Assembly (NCBI GenBank): GCA_900299345.1
Contig: OMJM01000044.1
Span: 1-64,000, forward strand
DNA: 64,000 bases
Source of the DNA: a bacterium
GTDB lineage: Bacteria > Fibrobacterota > Fibrobacteria > UBA11236
Direction: 5' to 3'
Shown: positions 2,238 through 40,068 of the stretch, in pieces
How the letters are laid out: the number at the start of each line of letters is the position of its first letter
Numbering within the stretch: the first letter of the stretch is position 1
Made by a program: the position numbers and the translations under genes
The notes under the pieces: model-generated
What the model saw: the letters and a program-made list of their open reading frames with translations, nothing else
What the model was told of the DNA's origin: nothing
Databases searched by the model: none

Positions 2238-4682
2238 CTAGAAACGTAGAATCATGCTGAAGCGTTTTTGACCGTTCCGGATGCCGTTGTCGAAGGATTT
2301 GATGAAAGTTCCGTCGATTTGCAGAATATCCGAGAGCATGAAGCCCAATCCGATGTCCATTTCGTAGCGCTGGCCGCTGATGTCGTGCAAATACCCCCCG
2401 CGCACGGCCACCACATTGGCATAGACGTATTCCGCACCGGTATTATAAACGGTGCGTCGCAGGTTTTCGTTGAGGGAGAATCCATCGGTGCCGCTGGGTT
2501 GCAGGATTTCCTTCCAAGCCCCGACCCACACCGGAGCCGCCTTGTTGCCGTAGCGGTAGAATGCTTCGCGATTGGCATCGCCCGCGATGGTGAGACGATG
2601 ATTGGGCGTGTGAATGAGTTCGTAGGCGAGGCCGACTTTCCACGTGAAGGGGATGGGATCGGATTGTGCCTGATCCACATAGAACACCGCGGGTCCCATG
2701 TTTTGCATCATCAACCCGAAGGAAAGGCCTTTCAACGTAAAGAGATTTTTCTGGATGAAACCCAGGTCCACCGCATAGCTGGCCGCTACACCATCGGTTT
2801 TCTCGCCGCTGGAAGTCACGCCCTGGGTCAACGCGGAATAGATGAACTTGGCGTTCACGCCCACGCCCGCATTTTTGTTGAGACGGGTGGCGTACGTCAA
2901 TGCCGCGACGAGTTCGTACGCATCGAACTTGGCCTGATCGCTTGCATCCGTGCCTGTCTGAAGGTTCTGACCGAAAGAGACGAAATTCACGAATCCGCCC
3001 AGGGTTCCCCATTCTTCAATCGGAAAGGTCGCACCAAGAAACGCGTGGTAGAGATCGGTCAGGTTCAATACCGGCAAAAGGTTTTCGTAGAAGAATCCGA
3101 CTTGCGCCTTGGCGTTGTGATAGCGTTCGACGCCCGCGTCGGTGAGAAACCACACGTCCCCGCCCTGTGTTTTCAGCGCCAGCACATCCTTGCTGGTCAG
3201 GCCGTTGCCGGTGTGAAAATGTGCCCAGTCTCCTCCGAGATTCTCCGAGCTTTCGCTGCCACCTGATGAACCGGCTCTCTCTGCGGCGTCGCGCCGGCCT
3301 TTGGGCGTGGTGTGTGCCGGAGTGAATTTCCATGCGCCTTCCGAGGTGGCGATCCACACGCGACCGTCATCATCTACAGACATGCCGCGCACATGCTGGT
3401 TGCGAAAGTGGAGTTTCTCCCATGCGCGCAGGGAGAAATGCGAAACGCCGCCATCGTGGGAGGTGTAAACATGGCCATACTTGTCCAGCGCTATTTGCGT
3501 GATGTTGGAATCCAGAAGACCATCGGCCGTGGTGAAGATTTTCCATTTTGCCGCAGCGCCCGAGGCTTTCGGACCCTTGTAGCGGGCAAGGCCACGCCCC
3601 TTCAAGCCCACGTAGATTTCATCGATCTCGGGGTGGGTTCCGATGGAGGTGATGTACTGGGAGGGAAGAATATTTTCACCGCGGCGGATGATGGAGTTCT
3701 TCTTGTATTCGTACAATCCATCCTCGGTTCCGATCCAGATGCTGACGCCTTTCACAGCCAGCGCGGTGACGGAGAGCTGACGGAAAGGACTTTTTGCAGG
3801 AGCAGCAGAAGCCTTGATCGAATCGGATTTTCCCGCGGATTCCACCTGCGCGGAAGAGGTGTCGGGAACGTAGGTGAATCCTTCCTCGCGATCGAAAGAC
3901 TTCCATCCCTGCCCATCGAAACGGAACAGGCCGCTGGCCGTTCCCACCCAAAGACGATCCGAATTGTCCAGCGTCAATGCGCGCACAGTTTGGCCCGGAA
4001 AGAGAAGATTGTAAGGCATCTTGAGGGTGATAAGTTCTTCTTCGTCTTCCTTGGTATAGACGTGGTTGTACCGCTTCACGCGAGCCACCAGCGAATCCAG
4101 ATGATCACCGCCGCCGACATAACGGCGCACGATGGATTCGATCTTGTCGCCCTCTTCCATCACGTATTCATGGGCCTCGCGCCATCGCTTGCCGTCGTAG
4201 TAATACAGGCCGTCCTGCGCGCCGGCCCACACAATGGATTTGACCAGGAATCCGGAACGGGGCCGCGTCACGAGGGTGGTGAAGTGCCGGTGTTTGGTGA
4301 CGGAATCCTTGCCGGAAACGCGGGGAAGCATCAACTCCCATTCATTGGCCACGGGTCCGAAAGCGAGGCCGCCCGGATTCCAATAGGTTCCGTAGACGTC
4401 GTCGGAAATCGCGGTCGCGGCTTCGCCCATGCCAAGCTGCCGTGCGCCCACGGGCATCACCAAAGTGATGACTGCGGAACCTCCCTGGGCATGCACGGAC
4501 TCCACGCCTCCGAGGGAGGCGAGCAGGGTACACGCCAAGGCAACGGCGCGGAAGTCGCGGAAATTATTGGCGGACAACAAAACTCCAATCCGGCGAGTCG
4601 TATCGGCTCGAGGGAAAAGGCGAAAAACCGCCGGAGGCCCCTCTGGCTTCAAATGACCTTGATTAGGGGGGTATTTATACAA
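2238..4682 (-). CDS. PorV/PorQ-like outer-membrane beta-barrel protein with inserted two-component-regulator-type propeller repeats
   Basis: N-terminal PorV/PorQ-like segment (PVGARQLGMGEAATAISDDVYGTYWNPGGLAF), central repeats of the type DNSDRLWVGTASGLFRFDGQGW / VSIWIGTEDGLYEYKK / DDGRVWIATSEGAWKF, and a C-terminal barrel ending in F. The true start is probably a TTG near 4580, just before the signal peptide. Confidence 0.8.
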   Translation of the reverse strand: MYKYPPNQGHLKPEGPPAVFRLFPRADTTRRIGVLLSANNFRDFRAVALACTLLASLGGVESVHAQGGSAVITLVMPVGARQLGMGEAATAISDDVYGTYWNPGGLAFGPVANEWELMLPRVSGKDSVTKHRHFTTLVTRPRSGFLVKSIVWAGAQDGLYYYDGKRWREAHEYVMEEGDKIESIVRRYVGGGDHLDSLVARVKRYNHVYTKEDEEELITLKMPYNLLFPGQTVRALTLDNSDRLWVGTASGLFRFDGQGWKSFDREEGFTYVPDTSSAQVESAGKSDSIKASAAPAKSPFRQLSVTALAVKGVSIWIGTEDGLYEYKKNSIIRRGENILPSQYITSIGTHPEIDEIYVGLKGRGLARYKGPKASGAAAKWKIFTTADGLLDSNITQIALDKYGHVYTSHDGGVSHFSLRAWEKLHFRNQHVRGMSVDDDGRVWIATSEGAWKFTPAHTTPKGRRDAAERAGSSGGSESSENLGGDWAHFHTGNGLTSKDVLALKTQGGDVWFLTDAGVERYHNAKAQVGFFYENLLPVLNLTDLYHAFLGATFPIEEWGTLGGFVNFVSFGQNLQTGTDASDQAKFDAYELVAALTYATRLNKNAGVGVNAKFIYSALTQGVTSSGEKTDGVAASYAVDLGFIQKNLFTLKGLSFGLMMQNMGPAVFYVDQAQSDPIPFTWKVGLAYELIHTPNHRLTIAGDANREAFYRYGNKAAPVWVGAWKEILQPSGTDGFSLNENLRRTVYNTGAEYVYANVVAVRGGYLHDISGQRYEMDIGLGFMLSDILQIDGTFIKSFDNGIRNGQKRFSMILRF

Positions 4683-36729: not shown

Positions 36730-37155
36730 CTACCCTACACCGTGTTTGCGGATGCGGATGATGCGGGAGGTGTCACCGGAAGGTTCCAGCTCCACTTCCC
36801 ACGTGAAGGGACTGAAATGCCCGGGCAATCGCTCCGGCCATTCGATCAGGCAAACGCCATCACCTTCCAGATAATGGTTCAGGCCGATCTCCTCCCAGTC
36901 CGCACCGGGAGCGAGGCGGTAGAGATCCATGTGATACACCGGAATCCGTCCTGCGTACTCATGCACCAGCGCATAGGTGGGGGAGTTTACCACACCGTGA
37001 TGGCCCAATGCGCGCGCCACTCCACGGCAGAACAAGGTTTTCCCCGCGCCCAACGGTCCCTTGAGCGCGACAGCATCACCGGATTGCAACTTCGCGGCAA
37101 ACGTTTCGGCGCAAGCCAGGGTCTCGGATTCTGAATGGGAATGGAATTCGGTCAT
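36730..37155 (-). CDS. tsaE: tRNA threonylcarbamoyladenosine biosynthesis ATPase TsaE
   Basis: ALKGPLGAGKTLFCRGVARALG; NSPTYALVHEYAGRIPVYHMDLYRL. Confidence 0.95.
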   Translation of the reverse strand: MTEFHSHSESETLACAETFAAKLQSGDAVALKGPLGAGKTLFCRGVARALGHHGVVNSPTYALVHEYAGRIPVYHMDLYRLAPGADWEEIGLNHYLEGDGVCLIEWPERLPGHFSPFTWEVELEPSGDTSRIIRIRKHGVG

Positions 37156-37167
37156 GGGCGATTTTGG

Positions 37168-37212
37168 GACGCCGCTGTAGGGGCGGGATTATCCCGCCCC
37201 TACAGCGGCGTC
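37168..37212. repeat. Perfect palindrome, 22-bp arms and 1-nt centre
   Basis: gacgccgctgtaggggcgggat t atcccgcccctacagcggcgtc; the right arm encodes the last residues and TAG stop of the minus-strand PorX-like gene. Confidence 0.95.
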
Positions 37213-38801
37213 AAGGTGGACAGCGGAACGATCATCTCCTCCATGGAAAGGCCGCCACTCACCATCTGATCCTTGAACTGGGTCACGAAATACTGGAACT
37301 TGTTCGGATAGACGAAGTAAAAGTTTTCCTTCGCGATGGCATAGGCGATTTCACCGGCCTCGCCGGGCAGACCATACTGCGATGGAGATTCCACAAACAA
37401 CGCCTGCCGTTCGTCGCAGGAGATGTTCGGCCCGATTTTCACGCGCGGGTTGGGCGTCTTTTCCTCCTGGCAGAACACCTCGGCGGGCGTGTCCACACGC
37501 ACCGTGCCGTGATCGCTGGTCACCACCACGGGCCGTTTGTTTTCCGCCATCACCTCGAAAGCTTGCATCAGACCCGAGGACTGGAACCATTCCCCGGCGC
37601 GGGCGCGGACTTCCTTTTCGCGCGGCGCGGGATCGAGCGGATGATCGCGGCGGTGGACGTCGAGCAGATCGATGAACTCGACTTCCACCACGATCAACCG
37701 GGCATCCTCATGGCGCGCGAGGTTCGAGGCGAGATTGGCCGCGTCCTCCTGCGTCCGCACGTGGATGAAACGGGGATCCTCCAGATCGAGTCCTTCCTTG
37801 CGCAACTGAATCTTCAGCAATTCGCGTTCGTAGGGCGCCGCATCCTCTTCTTCGCGGAGCCGCTGCCACAACTGCGGTTGATCGCGGTTGATGTCGCGCG
37901 GCATGCGCCCGGAAAACAAGGCAGCGCGGCAGAAAGCCTTGTCCGTCGGAAGCAAAGCCCAGGCGGCGTTGTTCTCCACCTTGAACCGGGACTCGATCAG
38001 CTTCTGGACGTACAGCCATTGGCCGAATCGCAGGCCGGCCATGACGAAGAGCACGCATTTTCCATGCTTCCGCAGCATGGGAATCACCTTGCGCCGTACC
38101 GTGAAGGTGTGCAGATCCGGATTGCCGCCCTGCCGCCCCGCCCAGGCGATGTAGTTGTTTTCCACATAGGAAAGAAAACGCCGCGCCAGTTCGCGCTTCT
38201 GATCGCGGTGCATGGACTCGAGGCTGGAGGACGTTGCGAAATGCAGTTCCACGTCCCACTTGCAGAGCTGGAAATAAATCTTCTCCCACTTGGACGGTGA
38301 GGGATTGGCAAGCAGGTTGGACTTGATCTCGGAAATGTCGCGCACGTAGTTGGATGTGGACTGATGCGAAGCCGCGGAGCGCGTCCGTAGAGCGGAAATG
38401 CAGACCGCCAGCGCCTGCGTCGGATTGACGGGCTTGGGCAGCCATCCGTCGAAGCTGCGGCCCCATGCGGCTTCCACGAGCCGTTCCTCGTCGTTTTTGG
38501 TCACGAGCAGCACGGGCACGCGGGGATGGCTTTCCCTGATCTCCTGAAGCGCGCCCGCGACGCTTTCCTTGCCGGAGATCTGCTCATCCAGCAGGACGAG
38601 ATCGAAACGCTGGCGTCGCAGCAGCGATAGCCCCGCGCTTTCGGAGGAGGCTTTTTCCACCTCGTAGCCGTGATCCTCCAGAAACAGGAGATGGGCACGG
38701 AGAAATTCGATCTCCGGATCCATCCACAGGATGCGTTTGCGATCACCCGTGGAGGGATCGCGCTCCAGCACGACGACGCGCTGTCCCGGCTCCCAACTCA
38801 T
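37200..38801 (-). CDS. porX: PorX-type response regulator: receiver domain plus PglZ alkaline-phosphatase-like domain
   Basis: KRILWMDPEIEFLRAHLLFLEDHGYEV...FDLVLLDEQISGKESV...PVLLVTKND...LPKPVNP (receiver), then a PglZ domain with PVVVTSDHGTVRVDTPAEV; adjacent to tsaE. Confidence 0.88.
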   Translation of the reverse strand: MSWEPGQRVVVLERDPSTGDRKRILWMDPEIEFLRAHLLFLEDHGYEVEKASSESAGLSLLRRQRFDLVLLDEQISGKESVAGALQEIRESHPRVPVLLVTKNDEERLVEAAWGRSFDGWLPKPVNPTQALAVCISALRTRSAASHQSTSNYVRDISEIKSNLLANPSPSKWEKIYFQLCKWDVELHFATSSSLESMHRDQKRELARRFLSYVENNYIAWAGRQGGNPDLHTFTVRRKVIPMLRKHGKCVLFVMAGLRFGQWLYVQKLIESRFKVENNAAWALLPTDKAFCRAALFSGRMPRDINRDQPQLWQRLREEEDAAPYERELLKIQLRKEGLDLEDPRFIHVRTQEDAANLASNLARHEDARLIVVEVEFIDLLDVHRRDHPLDPAPREKEVRARAGEWFQSSGLMQAFEVMAENKRPVVVTSDHGTVRVDTPAEVFCQEEKTPNPRVKIGPNISCDERQALFVESPSQYGLPGEAGEIAYAIAKENFYFVYPNKFQYFVTQFKDQMVSGGLSMEEMIVPLSTLTPL

Positions 38802-38802
38802 C

Positions 38803-40068
38803 TCAACCGATTTCTTCCGCGCCGCCGAGATAGGGGCGCAGCGCCGGAGGGATGCGCACGGTGCCGCGCGGCGTGTAATGCGTTTCGAGGAACGACACCA
38901 GCACGCGCGGGGTGGCGAGGCCGGAGCCGTTCAGCGTGTGCACGAGCCGCGTCTTGCCGCCGGCCTTGGTGCGGATGTTGGCGCGCCGCGCCTGAAAGTC
39001 CTCGAAGTTGGAGCAGGAAGAAACCTCCAGCCATTTCTTTTCGGCCGGGGCCCACACTTCGAGATCGTAACACTTGGCAGCGCCAAAGCCGAGATCCCCG
39101 GCGCACAGTTCCAATACGCGGTAGGGGAGTTCCAGCATGCGCAGCAGCTCTTCGGCTTGCTCGCGCAATTCCTCAAGCGCGTCGTAGGAAACTTCCGGCA
39201 AGGTGAACTTCACCATCTCCACCTTGTCGAACTGGTGCAGGCGCAGGAAGCCGCGCGTGTCCGCGCCCCACGATCCGGCTTCGCGGCGGAAACAGGCGGT
39301 GTAGGCGCAATAGGAGAGGGGCAGGCTGGCGGAGTCCAGCGTTTCGTCGCGATGCATGTTCGTCACCGGAACCTCGGCCGTGGGCACAAGGAACAGATCA
39401 TCATCGCCGCAGCGGTACATGTCCTCTTCGAACTTGGGAAGCTGGCCCGTGCCGGTCATGCTGGCTCGTGACACGAGATACGGTGGCGAAATTTCCGTGA
39501 AGCCGAATTTCTGGACGTGAACGTCGAGGAAGAAATTGATCAACGCGCGTTCCAGCCTCGCGCCCAATCCGGTGTAGATCGGGAATCCACGGCCGGATAG
39601 TTTGGCGCCGCGTTCGAAGTCGAACAGCTTGAGCTTCTCACCGATTTCCAGGTGGTGCGGAAACACTTGCGATTCGGGCGGCAACTTGCCCCAGGTTTTC
39701 GCGACCTTGTTGTCAGCGGGGGTTTTTCCGTCGGGAACGGACGGATGGGGAAGGTTGGGACACAACATCGCCAGCGCGTTGAGTTTTTCCTCGGCCTCAT
39801 TGAAGGCGGCCTGCAGCTCCTTGATGCGATCTCCCAAGGAGCGAGTCTTTTCGATCTCCGCCGAAGCATCACCCCCGGAGCGTTTGAGCTTGGCAATGGC
39901 CTCGGTGGCCGCATTGCGTTCGGCGTTCAACGTTTCCAGTTCAGAGCCGATCTTGCGTTTTTCCTGATCCAGTCGCAACAGGGCGTCGAGGTCGAAGGCC
40001 GTGCTCCGGCGTTTGAGGGCCGCCCGCACCTTTTCAGGATCGTCGCGGTACAGTTTGGGATCAATCAT
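38803..40068 (-). CDS. serS: Serine--tRNA ligase
   Basis: MIDPKLYRDDPEKVRAALKRR; class II motifs (TACFRREAGSWGADTRGFLRLHQFDKVEMV). Confidence 0.97.
   Translation of the reverse strand: MIDPKLYRDDPEKVRAALKRRSTAFDLDALLRLDQEKRKIGSELETLNAERNAATEAIAKLKRSGGDASAEIEKTRSLGDRIKELQAAFNEAEEKLNALAMLCPNLPHPSVPDGKTPADNKVAKTWGKLPPESQVFPHHLEIGEKLKLFDFERGAKLSGRGFPIYTGLGARLERALINFFLDVHVQKFGFTEISPPYLVSRASMTGTGQLPKFEEDMYRCGDDDLFLVPTAEVPVTNMHRDETLDSASLPLSYCAYTACFRREAGSWGADTRGFLRLHQFDKVEMVKFTLPEVSYDALEELREQAEELLRMLELPYRVLELCAGDLGFGAAKCYDLEVWAPAEKKWLEVSSCSNFEDFQARRANIRTKAGGKTRLVHTLNGSGLATPRVLVSFLETHYTPRGTVRIPPALRPYLGGAEEIG

Follow-up and report, generated by a model that had tools for sequence, protein, structure and literature searches.

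PorX has been studied as a switch of type IX secretion (T9SS) and as a possible drug target. In the PorX of F. johnsoniae (PorX_Fj), the receiver pocket consists of D11, E12, D54, T82 and K104, and D11 and D54 hold the metal with their side chains, D11 being a direct ligand in the crystal structure (PMC10951265). The zinc phosphodiesterase of PorX has been described as highly conserved. In PorX_Fj, it uses seven zinc/catalytic residues, D237, T271 (the nucleophile), D360, H364, D414, H415 and H499, and the T271V and D360A/H364A mutants have no phosphodiesterase activity (PMC11320123). PorX homologues are said to occur in all species having T9SS components (PMC10951265). Response regulators are called atypical when a recognised receiver lacks at least one of the five conserved residues, and orphans are known to be over-represented among the characterised ones (PMC12632262).

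We analysed a window of 64,000 nucleotides, which sits in a 144.7-kb contig of a Fibrobacterota metagenome-assembled genome (2.24 Mb, 100% complete). As the original prediction had read it, a receiver (Response_reg PF00072, 48.9 bits) and a PglZ domain (32 bits; cut-off 25) are fused in one 533-aa open reading frame (Table 1). Residues 20–532 of this protein align end to end with PorX_Fj (272 bits in the phmmer alignment) and with P. gingivalis PorX (261 bits). It scores 420.5 bits with the NCBIfam PorX equivalog NF052313, against a cut-off of 300, and in the tree it falls in a clade with other Fibrobacterota PorX. We also built an AlphaFold2 model from 26 sequences (the window protein and relatives). 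Its mean pLDDT was 85, mostly above 90 in the phosphatase-like domain and low near residues 381–390 and 502–505. The 17 best PDB matches of this model were all PorX structures, and the receiver–helix bundle–PglZ architecture and fold of PorX are present. Because of the full-length match, the equivalog score, the position in the tree and the fold, we concluded that the gene is almost certainly a PorX orthologue, in agreement with what had been proposed.

We also asked if the protein could instead be a BREX or other defence PglZ protein, with which it has the PglZ domain in common and to one of which, the BREX-3 PglZ (NF033449), it has a weak match. This match of 68.2 bits falls far short of the 250 that the family requires, whereas the protein passes the PorX equivalog and aligns with PorX over its full length. 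The neighbouring serS and tsaE are housekeeping genes, and the source genome encodes this one PglZ protein only. A defence origin is thus ruled out for practical purposes, and the grouping with BREX that would have spoken against the prediction was not observed.

The predicted tsaE neighbour was also found on the porX strand, 44 bp downstream, and the porX–tsaE adjacency is phylum-wide in Fibrobacterota. The porX stop codon and the porX–tsaE gap are overlapped by a perfect 19-bp hairpin (37170–37210, minus strand; predicted −44 kcal/mol, z −10.8). The palindrome at its core is found four times in the genome, every time on another contig, and it therefore looks like a dispersed palindromic element.

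Table 1. Features of the porX locus and of the PorV-family gene in the window (residue numbers of PorX_Fj where indicated)
Feature	Position	Strand	Evidence
porX-like gene, 533 aa: receiver, three-helix bundle, PglZ/alkaline-phosphatase-like domain	37200..38801	-	Domain profiles, alignment, NCBIfam, AlphaFold2 model
tsaE, directly downstream of porX	36730..37155	-	Pfam TsaE, 128.9 bits
serS, directly upstream of porX	38803..40068	-	serS stop one base before porX start
Acidic pair codons, D28 P29 (D10 D11 in PorX_Fj); P in place of direct metal ligand	38715..38720	-	Alignment
Phosphoacceptor D72 codon (D54 in PorX_Fj)	38586..38588	-	Alignment
A255 codon; zinc ligand D237 of PorX_Fj replaced	38037..38039	-	phmmer alignment and residue alignment
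K288 codon; catalytic Thr nucleophile T271 of PorX_Fj replaced	37938..37940	-	Alignment; T271 role from PMC11320123
S515 codon; zinc ligand H499 of PorX_Fj replaced	37257..37259	-	Alignment
PorV-family barrel with inserted propeller-like repeats	2238..4682	-	NF033709, 147.5 bits at 2244-3116; split N-terminal match at 4353-4475

Residues were compared in an alignment of 47 Fibrobacterota PorX with two Bacteroidota PorX. The PglZ domain had been taken as normal in the original prediction since VVVTSDHGTVRV (D414/H415) is kept. This did not hold up: D, T, D, H, D, H and H at the seven zinc/catalytic positions have become A, K, D, V, D, H and S in the window protein, so that four of the seven are replaced. 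The column of H364 is aligned with the least certainty, since the next residue along is a His. Given these replacements and the inactivity of the T271V and D360A/H364A mutants of PorX_Fj, the phosphodiesterase is very likely broken, although the kept equivalents of D360, D414 and H415 mean that one metal might be bound. All seven residues are intact in only 4 of the 47 Fibrobacterota PorX (two in family f9 and two in f11). D237 is lost in f7, where D414/H415 are mostly kept; f8, f10 and f12 keep D237 and have lost D414/H415; and f5 has lost all seven. In family f1, K recurs at the nucleophile position (8/10), and an A237/K271 pair is recurrent, with D360, D414 and H415 kept. Damage to the phosphatase site has therefore followed several different routes.

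In the receiver, the motifs are as originally read (ILWMDPE, LLDE, LVTK and PKP). The noted change of the acidic pair from DD to DP aligns to position 11 of PorX_Fj, giving D10, P11, D54, T82 and K104 (D,P,D,T,K versus the intact D,D,D,T,K). The metal-binding pocket is changed as had been suggested, since the residue replaced by P is the direct metal ligand D11 (PMC10951265). The window's genus (g1) is represented by four genomes, in which position 11 is P, T, G and G; every other Fibrobacterota PorX with letters at that column has D. The substitution is thus genus-wide, which rules out an assembly or sequencing error. D72, T101 and K123 are kept across g1, E30 is also kept in the window protein, and the D54 equivalent is present in all 47 Fibrobacterota PorX. 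Having a PF00072 receiver whose second acidic residue is Pro, the window protein is an atypical response regulator by the published definition, and its receiver switching is probably lost or much reduced.

The usual gene order in Fibrobacterota is serS–histidine kinase–porX–tsaE; the kinase lies between serS and porX in g2, f2, f5 and most other families. In this kinase, KETAHQLGTPISSLMGW is the phosphoacceptor motif and a HATPase_c domain scores 74 bits. No PorY-specific NCBIfam model matched it and its PDB matches were generic kinase cores only, so that naming it PorY would be guesswork. In g2, porX overlaps the stop of the kinase gene. In 4/4 g1 genomes, serS abuts porX instead (TGA, one base and ATG in the window; ATGA in genome G161; TAATG in G162).

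We searched whole genomes for this kinase using an HMM built from 17 porX-neighbour kinases. Full-length orthologues scored ∼510–685 bits, and only where the gene was split or cut off by a contig end were the values lower. In g1, in g21 and in the genomes G004, G018 and G025, nothing scored above 95 bits, a level reached by the generic kinase core only, and these include genomes that are 98–100% complete. Among the genomes searched, the kinase was never seen without PorX; in genus g31 of f8 it is present and does not adjoin porX. It is very probably truly absent from g1, and it was lost there and about three further times (three to four independent events in total).

Next, we compared the receivers of PorX with and without the kinase. 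The D,D,D,T,K signature was intact in 32/32 kinase-bearing PorX and in 7/13 kinase-less ones. Extending it by E55 and K83, which were picked after the data had been seen, gave 32/32 versus 0/13. A phylogenetic sign test gave p = 0.25, significance being out of reach because there are just three to four independent losses; the independent pairs with differing receivers all went in the same direction. The distance ratio of the receiver to the phosphatase-like domain (REC/APS) was 1.38 in g1 (bootstrap 1.04–1.86), where the receiver is thus the faster to change, as compared to 0.40 (0.18–0.68) in its sister genus g2. Similarly, within f7 it was 0.65 (0.47–0.86) in the kinase-less g21 and 0.20 (0.14–0.26) in the kinase-bearing members, while the value for the kinase-bearing f9 was uninformative (0.96; 0.39–1.95). 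Receiver change with kinase loss fits the over-representation of orphans already known for characterised atypical response regulators (PMC12632262).

The porX gene of g1 stays under purifying selection. Whole-gene dN/dS (Nei–Gojobori; values are rough as dS is near saturation) was 0.12–0.29 in g1 pairs and 0.03–0.09 in g2 pairs, and the PglZ-fold domain, 76% identical to its nearest relative, is better conserved than the receiver. A decaying pseudogene on its way to being lost would explain why several functional residues are gone, and PorX is wholly missing from Fibrobacteraceae and other families. However, the frame is open in 47 genomes, dN/dS is well below 1, the PglZ-fold domain is the better conserved part and a phylum-invariant D-E-R (463–465) is kept. 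We therefore rejected this reading as highly improbable. The porX of G162 has an Asn/Glu-rich low-complexity insertion, a few tens of residues long, inside the phosphatase-like domain; a gene break was rejected in this case, as the insertion and an N-terminal read-through account for the length of its open reading frame.

We then examined the T9SS context. SprA/Sov was detected in 168/168 Fibrobacterota genomes at E 0.001 and was above the cut-off in 160, including the source genome, and Por secretion tails and PorV-family proteins were present in 22/22 genomes tested. The source genome itself has SprA/Sov, PorV-family proteins and ∼25 Por secretion tails, so that the lack of all T9SS genes, which would have counted against the original prediction, was not observed. 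HMMs of GldL (TIGR03513) and GldM gave nothing convincing (silent or sub-threshold) in the tested Fibrobacterota genomes, which is not proof of absence. ECF sigma factors gave four matches in the source genome, none identifiable as SigP. At one locus of this genome (G000:C22:77000-85000; L068 2704-5513), a gene for an ECF-type sigma factor (222 aa) precedes a co-directional PorV-family barrel gene by ∼1 kb, and a response regulator faces the sigma factor; this is possibly a SigP-like arrangement. The split PorV-family match seen in the window recurs across the phylum in frames of 740–955 aa, and the barrel interrupted by propeller-like repeats is therefore a conserved Fibrobacterota architecture.

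Full-length PorX was found in 47/168 Fibrobacterota genomes and in 0/111 Fibrobacteraceae (family f4, G043–G153, a name based on published work on Fibrobacter T9SS and on group sizes), and the porX-associated kinase was not found in the f4 genomes sampled. As nearly all of these 111 genomes have SprA/Sov, the presence of SprA/Sov and Por tails does not require PorX in Fibrobacterota, contrary to the earlier statement (PMC10951265). Of the proposed link of this region to T9SS control, only the presence of secretion components, including the PorV barrel in the window, is supported; doubt is cast on the control role by the missing kinase, the broken site, the lack of recognisable GldL/GldM and the Fibrobacteraceae that have SprA/Sov and no PorX. 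It is possible, though on balance doubtful, that the window PorX acts as a T9SS regulator in this organism.

We propose, with a probability of roughly 0.7, that the PorX relay was dismantled stepwise in the window's genus while the protein was retained, most likely acting by binding without phosphorylation. The sequence of steps was read from the tree by parsimony and is undated. The decay of the PglZ phosphodiesterase site would predate the split of the window's family and would have happened independently in most other families. Then g1 would have lost the histidine kinase encoded between serS and porX, bringing porX to abut serS. Along with this loss, the receiver would have lost its metal-binding aspartate (D11 to P, T or G) and then outpaced the effector domain in change. 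The protein left by these steps would be an atypical response regulator, its receiver a pseudo-receiver and its phosphatase-like domain catalytically dead. Folded and probably dimeric, it would serve as a scaffold that holds a partner through its receiver, helix bundle and phosphatase fold without a kinase-driven switch. D-E-R and the recurrent K of f1 are candidate residues for a new binding role. The invariance of the D54 equivalent, with D72, T101 and K123 kept, points either to some remaining phosphorylation, from acetyl phosphate or a different kinase, or to a structural requirement.

The same conserved residues, together with E30, could mean that the protein is still a phospho-switch, where another histidine kinase (the source genome encodes others) or acetyl phosphate acts on D72 with weaker Mg dependence, and phosphorylation alone, without hydrolysis, drives binding to a T9SS motor protein. 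The receiver of PorX_Fj binds GldL and requires D54 for this (PMC10951265), and P. gingivalis PorX retains partial function with the single mutation D58A or T272V (PMC11320123). We consider this unlikely for the window protein, as each of the four g1 genomes has P, T or G for the direct metal ligand, the dedicated kinase is gone, receiver constraint is relaxed relative to the sister genus and GldL was not recognised in the source genome by TIGR03513.

Two other readings are closer to the binding-only function that we favour. CheY having Lys at the equivalent acidic position (D13K) is active without phosphorylation. As a special case of binding-only action, kinase loss and the D11 change might likewise have fixed PorX in a constitutively active-like, dimeric and partner-binding state. 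Unphosphorylated PorX_Fj crystallises as an active-like dimer (PMC10951265), and many pseudo-receivers dimerise without phosphorylation (PMC12632262). P, T and G at position 11, rather than one fixed residue, suggest drift over selection of a locking residue and leave this a rather improbable variant. More tentatively, because of the A237/K271 pair of f1 with D360, D414 and H415 kept and of D-E-R in 47 proteins, the phosphatase fold of Fibrobacterota PorX may have been repurposed from an enzyme into a ligand- or protein-binding module, and the kinase-less genus would then use PorX as a phosphorylation-independent nucleotide sensor or scaffold; we hold this as a speculative possibility that is less likely than not.

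The Fibrobacterota offer a natural experiment, having PorX with an intact enzyme, with a dead enzyme and a kinase, and with a dead enzyme and no kinase, as well as SprA/Sov genomes without PorX. This comparison separates which parts of PorX are kept by selection. It also provides an example, repeated and at the level of the locus, of receivers that changed once the kinase was lost, and this is relevant to the origin of pseudo-receivers. A literature search of open-licence papers found no report of Fibrobacterota PorX with such changes.

Compared with the PorX of P. gingivalis and F. johnsoniae (NF052313; PDB 7pv7, 8ted and 8p6f), the window protein shares the receiver, the three-helix bundle and the PglZ/alkaline-phosphatase fold end to end and keeps the phosphoacceptor D, T and K. 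It differs in the replaced equivalents of D237, T271, H364 and H499, in the replaced receiver metal ligand D11 and in the absence of a dedicated kinase; D-E-R, invariant in Fibrobacterota PorX, is different in both Bacteroidota PorX compared. With BREX PglZ it has the PglZ fold in common, whereas BREX PglZ has no receiver and another gene neighbourhood, and the window protein is below that family's cut-off. It resembles the atypical response regulators with pseudo-receivers (PMC12632262) in missing the second acidic residue and in having no partner kinase gene. It differs from them in that its effector is a PglZ/phosphatase-like domain, itself broken, and in that the kinase loss is readable from the locus across a whole phylum.
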